Source: Bacillota bacterium (GTDB lineage: Bacteria > Bacillota_B > Desulfitobacteriia > Desulfitobacteriales > Desulfitobacteriaceae). From it: a stretch of 5,548 bases of DNA. Below, one piece after another: positions 2,041 through 5,548 of the stretch. Position 1 is the stretch's first letter. Each line of letters begins with the position of its first letter. Under the pieces are notes generated by a model, which saw only the letters and a program-made list of their open reading frames with translations, did no database searches and was not told where the DNA came from. A program made the position numbers and the translations under genes. Location: contig JAJYAS010000276.1 of assembly GCA_021779415.1 (NCBI GenBank), positions 1-5,548 on the forward strand. The letters run 5' to 3'.

Positions 2041-2655
2041 TTGGAGGGTATAGTAACCCAAGATCACTTACAACAGGTTATTCAAGCTGCTCAGGGATTT
2101 TACGCAAGAAAAGACCGTGCCCATGATTTAGAACATGCCTTGAGAGTTAGAGAGTGGGGCAAAAAGCTGGCAGTTGAAGAAGGGGCTGACGTTATGATCG
2201 TTGAGTTGGCAGCACTTCTTCATGATATTGGTCGATCTGGGGCGGTGGAAAAAACGCATGCAGAAAGCAGCGCCGGTCTTGCAGGCAATATTCTACACAA
2301 AACAGGATATTCTCAAGATGTTTCCCAGAGAGTCAAAGATGCGATCATGGCCCATTCTCGTGAAGGAGGGCACGAACCGAATACATTGGAAGCCAAGATC
2401 TTGTATGATGCGGACAAACTGGATTTCGTGGGTGCTATCGGATTGGGTCGTTTGTTTACCTTGGCTGGGGTACAAGGTTGGTCATTAGTGGGCGAAAATT
2501 CCTGTGAGACATTTTATCAAGAAAAAATATGTGGATATCAGGAACATTTATACACGAAGGCTGCTAGAGTTTGTTTTGAACCCTTGTTCCTTTACATGGA
2601 AGGGTTCTGGAGAGAGTTGCATGACGAACGACTCAAATTATCCCATCCTGGATAA
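2041..2655 (+). CDS. HD-domain metal-dependent phosphohydrolase (YpgQ/YedJ-like)
   Basis: The 204-residue protein has the HD-superfamily metal site: His32 (in HDLEHALRV), His61-Asp62 (in AALLHDIGR) and an Asp in DADKLD (residues 123-128). His105 lies in the conserved MAHSRE segment. The arrangement matches the stand-alone YpgQ/YedJ-type proteins; YpgQ is reported as a metal-dependent nucleotide pyrophosphohydrolase. A similar housecleaning role is inferred here, but substrates in this superfamily cannot be read from sequence. The start is TTG at 2041: there is an in-frame TAG at 2005, no other start codon lies between, and the next ATG falls inside the domain. The G-rich run 2029-2037 (GGGGGTGGG) serves as ribosome-binding site at short spacing. 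A second GGAGGG at 2043-2048 falls inside the coding region with no start codon suitably placed after it. Probably co-transcribed with the small gene 41 bp downstream. Confidence 0.87.
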   Translation: MEGIVTQDHLQQVIQAAQGFYARKDRAHDLEHALRVREWGKKLAVEEGADVMIVELAALLHDIGRSGAVEKTHAESSAGLAGNILHKTGYSQDVSQRVKDAIMAHSREGGHEPNTLEAKILYDADKLDFVGAIGLGRLFTLAGVQGWSLVGENSCETFYQEKICGYQEHLYTKAARVCFEPLFLYMEGFWRELHDERLKLSHPG

Positions 2656-2696: not shown

Positions 2697-2936
2697 ATGC
2701 GGTGGCTTTGGCGACTATTAACTCTTTTCATTTTCCTTGGATTTTTGCGAACGTTTCTCGTTCCACAACCAAAGATTTTTATTGCGTGGCCGGAAGGGCA
2801 AAACTGGCCACAAAAGATTCAGGGTGAAATGAGGCAGTTGCAAAAATTTACTCAAGATCTTCCAGCTAGTATTGAAGTGGAAGTTCGTCGTCTCTGGAAG
2901 GATTTCCAGCCGAGTGGGAACGGTAAAGAGGTTTAG
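2697..2936 (+). CDS. Small single-pass membrane protein of unknown function
   Basis: I do not recognise this 79-residue protein. Residues 3-22 form a strongly hydrophobic segment (LWRLLTLFIFLGFL) flanked and interrupted by Arg2, Arg6 and Arg18, most likely an N-terminal membrane anchor. The remaining 55 or so residues are polar and include a Gln/Lys-rich likely helix (about 38-52) and a basic/acidic stretch ending GKEV. The ATG has AAAGGA at 2681-2686, ten bases upstream, which is acceptable spacing. It lies 41 bp after the HD gene on the same strand with no terminator between, so it is probably the second gene of that transcript. The real-gene call rests on the ribosome-binding site, the coherent membrane profile and operon position; homology was not tested. 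Confidence 0.6.
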   Translation: MRWLWRLLTLFIFLGFLRTFLVPQPKIFIAWPEGQNWPQKIQGEMRQLQKFTQDLPASIEVEVRRLWKDFQPSGNGKEV

Positions 2937-2979: not shown

Positions 2980-3007
2980 TTGCGAATAGCCAAAAATGTG
3001 GTATATT
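2980..3007 (+). promoter_or_regulatory. Candidate promoter for the HesB-like selenoprotein gene
   Basis: TTGCGA (2980-2985) and TATATT (3002-3007) are separated by 16 bp and resemble -35 and -10 boxes, each with four or five matches to consensus. Transcription would start around 3014, roughly 30 nt before the ATG. The stretch from 2937 to 2980 is T-rich but contains no convincing terminator hairpin, so read-through from the upstream gene is also possible. Confidence 0.45.
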
Positions 3008-3042
3008 TAGAATTAAAGTTTGTAAAAAGGAGTGAAGATATA

Positions 3043-3366
3043 ATGGTTGGAATTACAGAACTCGCTGCCGAGAAAGTCAAAGAAGTTCTAAAGAATCAAA
3101 ACAAAGAAAATGCATTTCTTCGCCTCTATCTTGTAGGCGTTGGCTGAGGTGGGCCGAATTTCGGCATGACTCTGGATGAGTCAAAGACAGATGAAGATAT
3201 TCTTGATGTTGAACACGGTGTGTCGTTAATTGCGGATAAAAAACTTTCTGTTCATTTAGAGGGAGCAATTATAGATTACATTAACTCCGCTAACGGCGGA
3301 GGATTTGAAATACGTACTGCTAATTCTGGTGGCGGCTGTGGCGATAGCTGCGGTGGAAGTTGCTAA
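3043..3366 (+). CDS. HesB/IscA-like A-type Fe-S protein, selenoprotein (TGA = Sec35)
   Basis: One frame runs from ATG 3043 to TAA 3364-3366 with a single internal TGA at 3145-3147; reading it as selenocysteine gives 107 residues. The start has AAGGAG (3027-3032) ten bases upstream. Residues 1-33 (GITELAAEKVKEVL..., LRLYLVGVG) are a normal A-type (IscA/HesB) opening; the TGA then falls in G-U-GGPNFGMTLDE, where A-type proteins have their first conserved metal-binding Cys. Codons continue in family-like sequence beyond it (GVSLIADK, LEGAIIDYI, GGFEIRTAN), so the TGA is not the end of the gene. The tail CGDSCGGSC supplies Cys99, Cys103 and Cys107. A-type proteins bind or pass on iron-sulfur clusters or iron. 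HesB-like selenoproteins are a known bacterial family; a redox or Fe-S role for this member is inferred. It is followed by its own terminator. The Sec machinery must be encoded elsewhere. Confidence 0.92.
3145..3147 (+). other. In-frame UGA recoded as selenocysteine
   Basis: This TGA is codon 35 of the HesB-like gene, in the context gtt ggc TGA ggt ggg (V-G-U-G-G). It replaces the first conserved Cys of the A-type fold. None of the other six genes whose end is visible here uses TGA as stop (TAA or TAG only), which is consistent with recoding although the sample is small. Confidence 0.9.
3167..3183 (+). promoter_or_regulatory. Bacterial SECIS element (stem-loop)
   Basis: TGACTC (3167-3172) and GAGTCA (3178-3183) form a perfect 6-bp stem closing the 5-nt loop TGGAT, with G in loop positions 2 and 3. 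The loop begins 25 nt after the TGA. The stem, the small G-containing loop and the distance fit the bacterial SECIS pattern recognised by SelB. A second small hairpin, GCCGA-ATT-TCGGC (3153-3165), lies just upstream and may stack on it, but it is too near the TGA to be the SelB site. The element is inside the coding sequence, as is normal in bacteria. Confidence 0.8.
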
Positions 3367-3385
3367 GGCAACTGGGTAGAAGAGT

Positions 3386-3420
3386 AAAAGAGAGCTCATA
3401 TATGAGCTCTCTTTTGTTTA
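3386..3420 (+). terminator. Intrinsic terminator after the selenoprotein gene
   Basis: A perfect 30-nt inverted repeat (3386-3415) begins AAAAGAGAGCTCATA and is followed by its exact complement; the GC-containing part GAGAGCTCAT/ATGAGCTCTC folds into a long stem. Its 3' arm ends in CTTTTGTTTA. It starts 20 bp after the stop codon at 3366. The symmetric A and T runs mean it could also terminate from the other side, though no minus-strand gene points at it. Confidence 0.88.
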
Positions 3421-3535: not shown

Positions 3536-3829
3536 ATGTCATTATCACGGGAAGAGTCTAACCGTGCTATTATTACCGTCTTGGGTCGTGACCAAATTGG
3601 AATTATCGCTTGGGTTTCTGGAAGACTTGCGGAATATCATGTCAACATACTGGATATTAGTCAAACGATTGTGAATGAATTTTTCACAATGATCATGGTG
3701 GTAGACTTGAAACCAGCTACTTTAGAACTTGTCGAGCTAGCGCGTACGCTGGAGCATGAGGGCGACAACAAAGGGTTGCAGGTAAAGGTTCAACATGAAG
3801 ATATCTTTACGTTTATGCACCGCATTTAA
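3536..3829 (+). CDS. ACT-domain protein, UPF0237 family
   Basis: The 97-residue protein is essentially one ACT domain. After about ten extra residues, AIITVLGRDQIGIIAWVSGRL (residues 11-31) gives the first strand, the ligand-loop motif G-x-D-x-x-G-I and the first helix. NILDISQTIVNEFFTMIMVVDL (37-58) gives the central strands, and the C-terminus VKVQHEDIFTFMHRI (83-97) is a signature of UPF0237. ACT domains bind amino acids or other small molecules and work as regulators, usually as dimers; the ligand here is unknown. The ATG at 3536 has AAGGGAGGAA (3521-3530) just upstream, so the longer frame from TTG 3461 is not used. It sits 43 bp before the UPF0210 gene with no terminator between, and the two families are commonly found side by side, implying a joint task. 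Confidence 0.92.
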   Translation: MSLSREESNRAIITVLGRDQIGIIAWVSGRLAEYHVNILDISQTIVNEFFTMIMVVDLKPATLELVELARTLEHEGDNKGLQVKVQHEDIFTFMHRI

Positions 3830-3872: not shown

Positions 3873-5240
3873 ATGACAATTACATTTGCGCGAGAAGAAA
3901 TTCAACAAACTATTAAAATGATACATGAAGAAAATTTGGATATTCGAACTATTACGATGGGAATTAGTCTACTTGATTGTGGATCCGAAGATATTAAGCG
4001 GATGGAACAGAAAATTTATGATAAAGTAACTAAAAATGCGGGACAGTTAGTAGCAGTTGGCGAACAAATTTCGGCACGCTACGGAATTCCCATTATAAAT
4101 AAACGGGTATCAGTCACTCCCATAGCGATTGCGGCGAATCATTTAGATTCAGATCAGATGGTCCGTATAGCCAAAGTGTTGGATCGTGCGGCGAAAGAGA
4201 TTGGGGTTAATTTTATCGGCGGATTTTCTGCCCTAGTTCAAAAGGGGTTTACAGTAGGAGATTTGGCGCTCATCGATGCCATACCACAAGCACTTAGTGA
4301 GACAGAATTTGTTTGTTCGTCAGTCAATATTGGAACGACTAAAGCAGGGATTAATATGGATGCAGTGTTAAAAATGGGCAATGTCATTTTGAAATCTGCT
4401 CAATTGACGGCTGAAAGAGATGGCATAGCGGCGGCAAAATTGGTCGTGTTTTGCAATGCCCCAGAAGATAATCCATTCATGGCGGGAGCTTTCCATGGTG
4501 TGGGAGAACCTGAGTGTGTCATCAATGTAGGGGTTAGTGGACCTGGGGTTGTGGCAAATGTTGTGAAAGAATACCCTGAAGCGGATTTTAGTGAATTGTC
4601 TAATTTAATTAAACAAACGGCCTTCAAAATTACTCGTATGGGAGAGCTTATTGGACGGGCAGCTTCGAAGGTCTTAGAGGTTCCCTTTGGGATTGTGGAT
4701 CTTTCTTTGGCACCGACTCCTGCAATCGGAGATAGTGTGGCGGAAATCCTGGAAAATATGGGACTTGAGCGATGTGGGACGCATGGAACAACCGCCGCTT
4801 TGGCGCTGCTTAATGATGCGGTTAAGAAGGGTGGTGCAATGGCATCATCCCACGTTGGAGGTTTAAGTGGTGCATTTATACCCGTCTCGGAAGATGCGGG
4901 AATGATAAAGGCTGTTGAGGTTGGGGCATTAACCCTCGATAAGTTAGAAGCAATGACCTGCGTCTGTTCGGTCGGTTTAGATATGATTGCGCTACCTGGA
5001 GATGTCAGTCCTGAAACAATTTCGGCTATTATTGCTGATGAAGCCGCAATAGGGATGATCAATAAAAAGACTACAGCGGTACGAGTGATTCCCGCGCCGG
5101 GTAAAAAAGCAGGGGATCGGGTAGAATATGGCGGATTATTGGGTGGGGCACCAGTTATGGCCATTCATCCCTTTTCTTCGAAAATGTTTGTTAACCGTGG
5201 AGGCCGGATTCCAGCGCCACTAATTAGTCTTTCGAATTAA
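3873..5240 (+). CDS. UPF0210 / DUF711 'PFL family' protein
   Basis: The 455-residue protein matches UPF0210 over its whole length: [18 protein letters not shown] (19-36), [17 protein letters not shown] (70-86), [12 protein letters not shown] (114-125), [17 protein letters not shown] (149-165), [17 protein letters not shown] (193-209), GVSGPGVV (220-227), [15 protein letters not shown] (280-294), [20 protein letters not shown] (302-321), [16 protein letters not shown] (362-377) and [14 protein letters not shown] (414-427). Known structures of the family have a fold like pyruvate formate-lyase, hence the name, but the glycyl-radical motif RVxGY is absent: RVEYGG at 416-421 is only a superficial likeness. 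No biochemical function is known to me. The ATG at 3873 has GGAGG (3862-3866) six bases upstream; a TTG at 3837 would add 12 residues without such a site. It forms an operon with the ACT-domain gene, which probably regulates or partners it. Confidence 0.93.
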
Positions 5241-5406: not shown

Positions 5407-5510
5407 AAAGGACGTAGACATGAATTGATTTTCTTTAAACTATGGAACGTTATTCTAGTGCATGAGTTGGCAATCGAAGGCGGGCCTAATAATCCGCTAA
5501 GGGCATACCG

Positions 5511-5548
5511 ATGAAGTTCCTGGTGGTGGCTTTCGACGCCCAGTCGAG
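5511..5548 (+). CDS. Probable start of an unidentified gene, cut by the window edge
   Basis: ATG at 5511 opens a frame encoding MKFLVVAFDAQS before the sequence ends. AAGGG (5499-5503) lies seven bases upstream, and a good promoter sits about 105 bp upstream. The peptide looks like a first beta strand ending in Asp (FLVVAFD), as found at the start of many alpha/beta proteins, and its codons (ctg gtg gtg gct ttc gac gcc cag) are coherent but more GC-rich than the genes to the left. Twelve codons are too few to name a family. A minus-strand frame also crosses this stretch but has no supporting signals. Confidence 0.4.
   Translation, partial: MKFLVVAFDAQS

Follow-up and report, generated by a model that had tools for sequence, protein, structure and literature searches.

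The locus described here raises the question of whether an in-frame TGA is read as selenocysteine (Sec) in a small HesB/IscA-type protein, and what such a protein would do. The window (the whole stretch of DNA analysed, 5,548 nucleotides long) contains an open reading frame on the forward strand that starts at ATG 3043, ends at TAA 3364-3366 and encodes 107 residues, with the TGA at 3145-3147 occupying the position of residue 35. A single 107-residue frame of this kind had been put forward in the original prediction, and its coordinates and length were reproduced; the observation of a TGA-containing HesB/IscA gene at 3043-3366 is confirmed. The features of the gene and of its surroundings are collected in Table 1.

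Table 1. Features in the window around the TGA-containing gene.
Feature	Position	Strand	Basis
HD-domain protein, upstream neighbour	2041..2655	+	domain match
79-aa protein, upstream neighbour conserved in 37 of 45 TGA rows; no family match	2697..2936	+	
Ribosome-binding site AAGGAG, 10 nt before ATG 3043	3027..3032	+	sequence; related starts
HesB/IscA-type gene, predicted selenoprotein, 107 residues + TAA	3043..3366	+	ORF, profile matches, aligned family genes
In-frame TGA, probable Sec35, in the column of the first Cys conserved among A-type proteins	3145..3147	+	alignment
Codons 36-48, where only the TGA genes show frozen synonymous variation	3148..3186	+	synonymous-diversity test
Upstream hairpin GCCGA-ATT-TCGGC with a stem of 5 bp; in two relatives one pair is changed on both sides from G-C to A-U	3153..3165	+	
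Putative SECIS apical hairpin TGACTC-TGGAT-GAGTCA with a 6-bp stem and its loop at 3173-3177, 25 nt from the UGA	3167..3183	+	
C-terminal CGDSCGGSC (Cys99, Cys103, Cys107); tail 96-107 of low model confidence	3337..3363	+	
Perfect inverted repeat with arms of 14 bp and a loop of 4, -19.4 kcal/mol; probably a transcription terminator	3385..3416	+	
ACT-domain protein (NF001220), downstream neighbour in 34 of 45 TGA rows	3536..3829	+	
DUF711 protein, downstream neighbour	3873..5240	+	domain match

An AAGGAG motif at most 30 nt upstream of the start was found in all 32 related loci, in agreement with the earlier assignment of the ribosome-binding site to 3043. The accompanying statement that no such site precedes the downstream ATG at 3166 was slightly overstated, as a Shine-Dalgarno-like GAGGTG is located at 3146-3151, 14 nt before that codon and with a hairpin in between. 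When the window gene was compared with its relatives, dN was lower than dS on both sides of the TGA and in the same frame in all 28 comparisons with a defined dS (29 were run). The closest genome match is D. metallidurans OL, in which the 107-residue protein is 97% identical and five neighbouring proteins are 94-98% identical to those of the window, and the window DNA is assigned to a Desulfosporosinus-like bacterium.

The inverted repeat that follows the gene suggests that the Sec copy is probably transcribed alone. Despite this repeat, a consensus promoter and terminator scanner called no terminator between 2900 and 3560, and it found one promoter-like site (2980-3007) where 1.5 are expected by chance. 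No iron-sulfur (Fe-S) or formate dehydrogenase gene lies beside the Sec copy, and its neighbours explain no role. ARAGORN detected no tRNA in the window. Behind the DUF711 gene, positions 5426-5548 (+) match the first 124 positions of OLE RNA (RF01071) with 93.8 bits against a gathering score of 50, the element being cut by the end of the window.

In order to place the protein in a family, the translation was compared with curated profiles. It scored 34 bits with PF01521 and 68.5 bits with TIGR00049, both above their cut-offs (26.3 and 58.8 bits), whereas a Pfam search (E up to 0.001) with the part after ATG 3166 alone gave no match, which bears out the earlier view that the 34-codon stub and the fragment starting at 3166 belong together. 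An AF2 model (pLDDT 79.2, pTM 0.63, tail 96-107 below 50) gave nine Foldseek matches at E up to 0.001, which are IscA, SufA, HI1723, AQ_1857 and DsrR, and the predicted structure has the HesB/IscA fold. In alignments, residue 35 falls on the Cys that is conserved first in HI1723, AQ_1857 and E. coli IscA, as had been claimed, and an in-frame UGA at that Cys makes the gene a probable HesB-like selenoprotein in the broad sense. Like the A-type Fe-S carriers IscA, SufA and ErpA, the protein exceeds the TIGR00049 and PF01521 cut-offs and shares their predicted fold and the position of the first Cys; unlike them, it would have Sec in place of Cys35 and has a CxxxCxxxC tail, and its scores stay far under the equivalog cut-offs for IscA, SufA and ErpA.

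The class itself is not new, as the original prediction rightly held: HesB-like selenoproteins are a listed family, with 11 members in Table 1 of a 2006 study (PMC1794560), and they appear in Table 1 of a 2026 review as TIGR01911 with the motif UxGP (PMC13188914). The window protein resembles that family in having its predicted Sec where HesB/IscA-type proteins carry their first conserved Cys, and its U-G-G-P fits the motif as tabulated. It differs in its Cys-rich tail, in the coexistence of Cys paralogues in many genomes carrying a gene of the window type, and in its score with TIGR01911 (HesB_rel_seleno), 46.7 bits against a cut-off of 66.35; seven relatives scored 27.2-51.8 bits, none of them above the cut-off. 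The second selenoprotein profile, NF038090 (IscA_HesB_Se), is matched nearly end to end (positions 1-100 of 101) but with 64.7 bits, under its cut-off of 85. The gene is very probably a new member of the known HesB-like selenoprotein class, one that neither of the two NCBI selenoprotein models captures at its cut-off.

Conservation of the TGA was studied in relatives. A first genome scan gave 32 loci, with TGA at the codon in 27 and TGT or TGC in 5. The gene set was then made of 78 distinct genes (the scan loci plus copies from 26 genomes and from 45 family genomes), 77 of which, including the window gene and with L098 dropped, were aligned and used for a tree. Codon 35, the column that the proposed alignment was to examine, is TGA in 45 of them, Cys in 31 and Ser in 1. 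The Cys relatives run unbroken across the site, so homologues do not all end there, and TGA recurs in independent genomes, which speaks against TGC or TGT as the true codon at 3145. On the tree, the label U needs 3 changes against 24.5 in shuffles. The direction of the change between Sec and Cys is left unsettled by this tree because it was built from few columns and only 34 of its 70 inner branches are well supported. A class-level search covered 82 genomes, 54 of them matching at E <= 1e-15, and contributed 14 further loci, of which 9 have TGA and 5 have a Cys codon at position 35. Within the flanks examined, none of these 14 loci has an ACT or a DUF711 neighbour, which makes the window's gene order a trait of the family only.

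Other forms of the gene were seen in the course of this survey. Nine loci (L060, L062, L063, L067, L068, L070, L075, L078 and L085) make up a third HesB paralogue group in Desulfosporosinus relatives, with Cys at the Sec column in eight and Ser (AGT) in L060; Ser is also present at this column in four full-length database entries, so the ligand may be lost. The Acididesulfobacillus genome G009 carries three Sec-type HesB copies (L031, L064 and L065), two of them about 13 kb apart. Both a Sec-type and a Cys-type copy occur, for example, in the cultured species D. hippei (L010 and L025). The distant HesB-type gene at L098:4333-4614 has an in-frame TGA right after a Cys (G-C-U), a few residues off the usual column. 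A second Sec in the C-terminal tail was considered for L069, which has two TGAs, and rejected, as the second precedes one codon and then TAA and was taken as an ordinary stop.

The region downstream of the TGA was analysed for a SECIS element. The bacterial SECIS model, as set out in the 2026 review (PMC13188914), has a stem of 4-16 bp, a loop of 3-9 nt with G in its first two positions and lying 16-37 nt from the UGA, and a minimum free energy (MFE) of at most -7.5 kcal/mol. The hairpin at 3167-3183 fits this geometry (stem 6, loop 5 of sequence UGGAU, G at loop position 2, distance 25 nt); on its own the apical hairpin reaches -7.1 kcal/mol at best, so that taken literally none of the 37 close TGA genes passes the energy rule. 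The 51 nt downstream as a whole reach -14.9 kcal/mol, against a mean of -6.6 (sd 2.3) in 2000 synonymous resamplings, only 0.1% of which attained that value, and when the window codons were resampled synonymously (n=5000), 0.46% yielded a rule-fitting hairpin of equal stability. Every one of the 37 close TGA genes has a hairpin of 5-7 bp at this place, and a 6-bp stem is left in 5 of 17 close Cys genes. All nine class-level TGA loci also retain the hairpin, with loop UGGA(U/C). A scan of the window against Rfam at E up to 1 returned no SECIS family, OLE RNA being the sole match.

The strongest test of the SECIS is the contrast in synonymous variation between TGA and Cys genes, for which 30 TGA and 17 Cys sequences were used after removal of duplicates, L079 and more distant genes. 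In the TGA genes, synonymous diversity at codons 36-48 falls to 0.153 of expectation, compared with 0.663 at codons 1-34 and 0.750 at codons 49-91, whereas in the 17 Cys paralogues the same codons 36-48 stand at 0.715 and are as free as the rest of the gene. Covariation was counted over distinct rows, 35 of them from TGA genes and 29 from Cys genes. The hairpin at 3167-3183 pairs in 98.1% of cells in the TGA rows versus 75.3% in the Cys rows, with two-sided changes in the TGA rows at 2 of its 6 pairs (in 4 and 1 sequences); the hairpin at 3153-3165 pairs in 89.1% of cells in the TGA rows, with a single two-sided pair (2 sequences). The covariation score of the TGA rows was reached by 27 of 500 shuffles, with fewer pair types than in the shuffles, and the Cys rows showed two-sided changes at three pairs, no more than shuffles yield. 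Taken alone the covariation measures are mixed, and the main weight is therefore placed on the synonymous contrast.

The Cys genes L116-L119 keep much of the hairpin, most clearly L118, where it has the look of a fossil SECIS. For Desulfitobacterium hafniense, a change from Sec to Cys that left a SECIS remnant behind in a HesB-like gene was described in 2006 (PMC1794560). L118 lies in the genome G062, in which selB is over its cut-off and selA was not found, and its SECIS-like hairpin is intact; the genome is possibly in the course of losing Sec, or its assembly may be incomplete or mixed.

Genomes of relatives were also searched for the Sec machinery, and it is through them that the refuting condition of a host lacking this machinery was addressed. 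Of 39 genomes carrying a TGA copy, 35 have selA above its cut-off (22/26 and 13/13 in two sets, with misses in G018, G020, G023 and G025); selB is above its cut-off in 26 of 27 (9/9, 5/5 and 12/13, with a miss in G036), and selD is present in all 26 genomes of the first TGA set; G042, with a TGA gene and selB, gave no selD match. For tRNA-Sec, 108 first-look candidates were scored per genome. As the gathering score of 47 bits is unspecific (5 of 14 control genomes pass it), matches of at least 63 bits are counted here; they were found in 22 of 26 TGA genomes, with weak matches only in G002, G006, G011 and G020.

In the six genomes whose sole close copy is Cys (G040, G041 and G060-G063), selA was found in none, and selB in neither of G040 and G041 and in one of the other four (G062). 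In a further genome with Cys as its sole close copy (G030), selB is present and selD had no match, and three genomes (G027-G029) combine a close Cys copy with a distant TGA copy (L094, L096 and L097) and selB. G040 and G041 carry the Cys gene about 0.55 kb from the ACT gene and 1.4 kb from the DUF711 gene that also accompany the gene in the window, which places Cys at the orthologous position; in these two genomes no selA, no selB over cut-off and no selD were detected, both being small assemblies (1.9 Mb) in which incompleteness could contribute.

The conserved TGA, the constrained hairpin specific to TGA genes, the Cys homologues in the same column and the Sec machinery in nearly all TGA-bearing relatives tested together argue for Sec at residue 35. 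The reading of the gene as a HesB/IscA selenoprotein, as originally predicted, was upheld, and UGA 3145 is very probably decoded as Sec in an A-type (HesB/IscA-fold) protein.

What this protein does was approached through the Cys paralogues, some of which lie beside selenium or formate dehydrogenase genes. In six loci (L048-L052 and L083) the neighbourhood of the Cys copy, up to 8 kb away, includes selD, yedF, a gene of the Se/S carrier family DUF3343 and a gene for an aminotransferase similar to Sec lyase or cysteine desulfurase, the latter below curated cut-offs; in L083 it is the fourth gene on the same strand, 69 bp behind DUF3343. YedF and DUF3343 are published candidates for selenium metabolism (PMC5322559). 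The selD of these six loci is of the Cys type, with GGCGAK at the active-site motif, where Table 1 of the 2026 review gives UxxK for the Sec form (PMC13188914). In five loci (L048, L049, L050, L074 and L112, the last from outside the family genome set) the Cys copy begins 17-48 bp behind fdhA, which in all five has Cys at the catalytic position. Seven fdhA genes in six genomes (L100-L105) have TGA at that position, and no HesB gene was seen in the flanks examined around these seven. Against the pairing, the Cys-type fdhA of G005 (L099) has no HesB gene within 13 kb, and the selenium (selD) clusters of L053 and L061 have no HesB copy.

In three genomes (L048, L049 and L050, in G021, G008 and G004, respectively) the Cys-type selD, fdhA and hesB lie together within about 8 kb, and in-frame-TGA genes for SelD, FdhA and HesB are all located elsewhere in the same genome. 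SelD was found near HesB in 6 of 31 Cys rows versus 0 of 45 TGA rows, a comparison that is not even-handed because longer flanks (13-16 kb) were taken for Cys loci and several of these had been chosen beforehand near selD. In a fairer count, made on the 13 genomes having both a Cys copy of at least 140 bits and a selD without TGA (G002-G008, G011, G021, G022, G034, G035 and G039), the two genes are at most 10 kb apart in 6. Other neighbours of the Cys copies, outside or around the selD and fdhA loci, were scanned as a functional lead (ten proteins, with matches to, among others, a RadA-like ATPase, part of an ECF transporter, IMP dehydrogenase, a two-component system and a solute-binding protein) and dropped, as they form no pattern. 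The company of the Cys paralogues suggests a selenium-independent back-up set, with a hint that HesB may serve formate dehydrogenase.

Since PF01521 and TIGR00049 are matched over their cut-offs and the predicted fold is of the IscA type, the protein rather likely works as an iron or Fe-S carrier. Its link to formate dehydrogenase, drawn from the five genomes in which a Cys copy follows a Cys-type fdhA at a distance of 17-48 bp, is tentative. A competitor of the carrier role accepts the selenoprotein and gives it another function, either a selenenyl-sulfide switch formed by Sec35 and the Cys-rich tail or a chaperone for selenium or sulfur trafficking. It draws on the Cys paralogues near selD, yedF, DUF3343 and the Sec-lyase-like gene in six genomes, with the close arrangement in L083, on a tail unlike a plain C-x-C, and on the judgement of the 2026 review that most uncharacterised selenoproteins are likely redox proteins (PMC13188914). 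Against this, the fold and the first-ligand position are those of IscA, some Sec relatives (L029-L032) finish in C-x-C, the Cys paralogue also pairs with fdhA, and in L053 and L061 the selenium cluster stands without a HesB copy. We regard a switch or trafficking role as possible and the carrier role as the likelier of the two.

Other explanations deny Sec altogether, and for these the databases are informative. The protein search gave 133 matches, and sorting by script covers the 120 listed. Among these 120, 44 start at or near the Met after the TGA (64-70 residues), 3 have Trp at column 35 (P0002, P0003 and P0058), 65 have Cys, 4 have Ser and 4 fall outside the pattern, all four being Cys by eye; no U was seen at column 35 among them, with the caveat that the tools write U as C. 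For the 73 listed entries longer than 95 residues, the best match is a Cys gene in 66 and a TGA gene in 7, the three Trp entries included. The expectation that such genes are easily mis-annotated is borne out, and with 44 of the 120 listed relatives cut at the Sec codon and 3 more read as Trp, gene-content studies would miss the Sec form.

The 44 entries stored as downstream fragments could also be taken at face value, as one of two products (a stub that stops after 34 residues and a 66-residue protein whose translation restarts at ATG 3166) or as the remains of a gene broken by a nonsense codon, and the GAGGTG before ATG 3166, with the hairpin between them, could favour a restart. Only the joined protein matches PF01521, however, the fragment alone having no Pfam family; the Cys relatives are unbroken across the site, and dN is below dS in both halves. 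Moreover, the position of ATG 3166 is occupied by TTA in L094-L097, 4 of the 35 distinct TGA rows (in L064, L065 and L069 it is TTG, from which a start is still possible), and the best-constrained hairpin falls downstream of that codon. Two products, or a broken gene, are highly improbable.

Reading of the UGA as Trp, or plain read-through, would account for the W at column 35 in P0002, P0003 and P0058 among the 120 matches listed. The unbroken homologues carry Cys, rarely Ser, at this position, and TGA is the terminal stop in 8 of 78 family genes; the downstream constraint specific to TGA genes and the Sec machinery that accompanies the gene in relatives' genomes are further points against this reading, which is equally improbable. 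A sequencing or assembly error of TGC or TGT found no support and is practically negligible: 44 other aligned genes, and 9 loci from the class-level search besides, show the identical codon at the identical place.

With UGA 3145 read as Sec, SelB and tRNA-Sec would decode the codon with the help of the hairpin at 3167-3183, placing selenocysteine at the first metal-ligand position of a 107-residue A-type protein. Sec35 and Cys99, Cys103 and Cys107 would bind a metal or a cluster, a selenolate taking the place of one thiolate, and the protein would serve redox Fe-S/Mo enzymes such as formate dehydrogenase, the Cys paralogue taking over under selenium scarcity. A comparable case is the HesB-like selenoprotein of Methanococcus maripaludis, backed there by experiment, in which it was identified through mutagenesis and 75Se labelling, and whose mutant showed no nitrogen-fixation defect according to an unpublished remark, a point against the function proposed here (PMC11097638); it belongs to an archaeal Sec system and is likened here by its description. 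The same organism has Sec and Cys isoforms of one enzyme in one genome, under a selenium-regulated switch (HrsM; PMC11097638), as many of the bacteria studied here have both forms, whereas for bacteria with the window-type gene such regulation is only a guess. Neither the Desulfosporosinus gene nor the Cys cluster was found in titles and abstract openings, most subscription journals lying outside the scope of this search, and a literature search for a selenium-limitation isogene set gave nothing.

The HesB-like A-type proteins may form a selenium-dependent isozyme pair, a proposal we advance with caution, in which the Sec form would be the carrier of selenium-replete cells, the Cys forms of SelD, FdhA and HesB would make up a selenium-independent module, and HesB-like proteins would be dedicated donors of FdhA. 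If this is true, the operon of Cys-type fdhA and hesB would make HesB-like proteins dedicated Fe-S (or Mo-site sulfur or selenium) donors of formate dehydrogenase, and the HesB-like selenoprotein would gain a client.

The gene itself is modest, and the idea of a Sec/Cys back-up is the part worth testing. The subfamily is badly annotated, and its Sec form is easily overlooked in studies of gene content. The lineage offers natural comparisons, with Sec and Cys copies within one genome and with two genomes in which selA, selB and selD were not detected and the orthologous position is taken by a Cys gene. For the question of why an iron-sulfur carrier should use selenium, formate dehydrogenase is a concrete candidate client.
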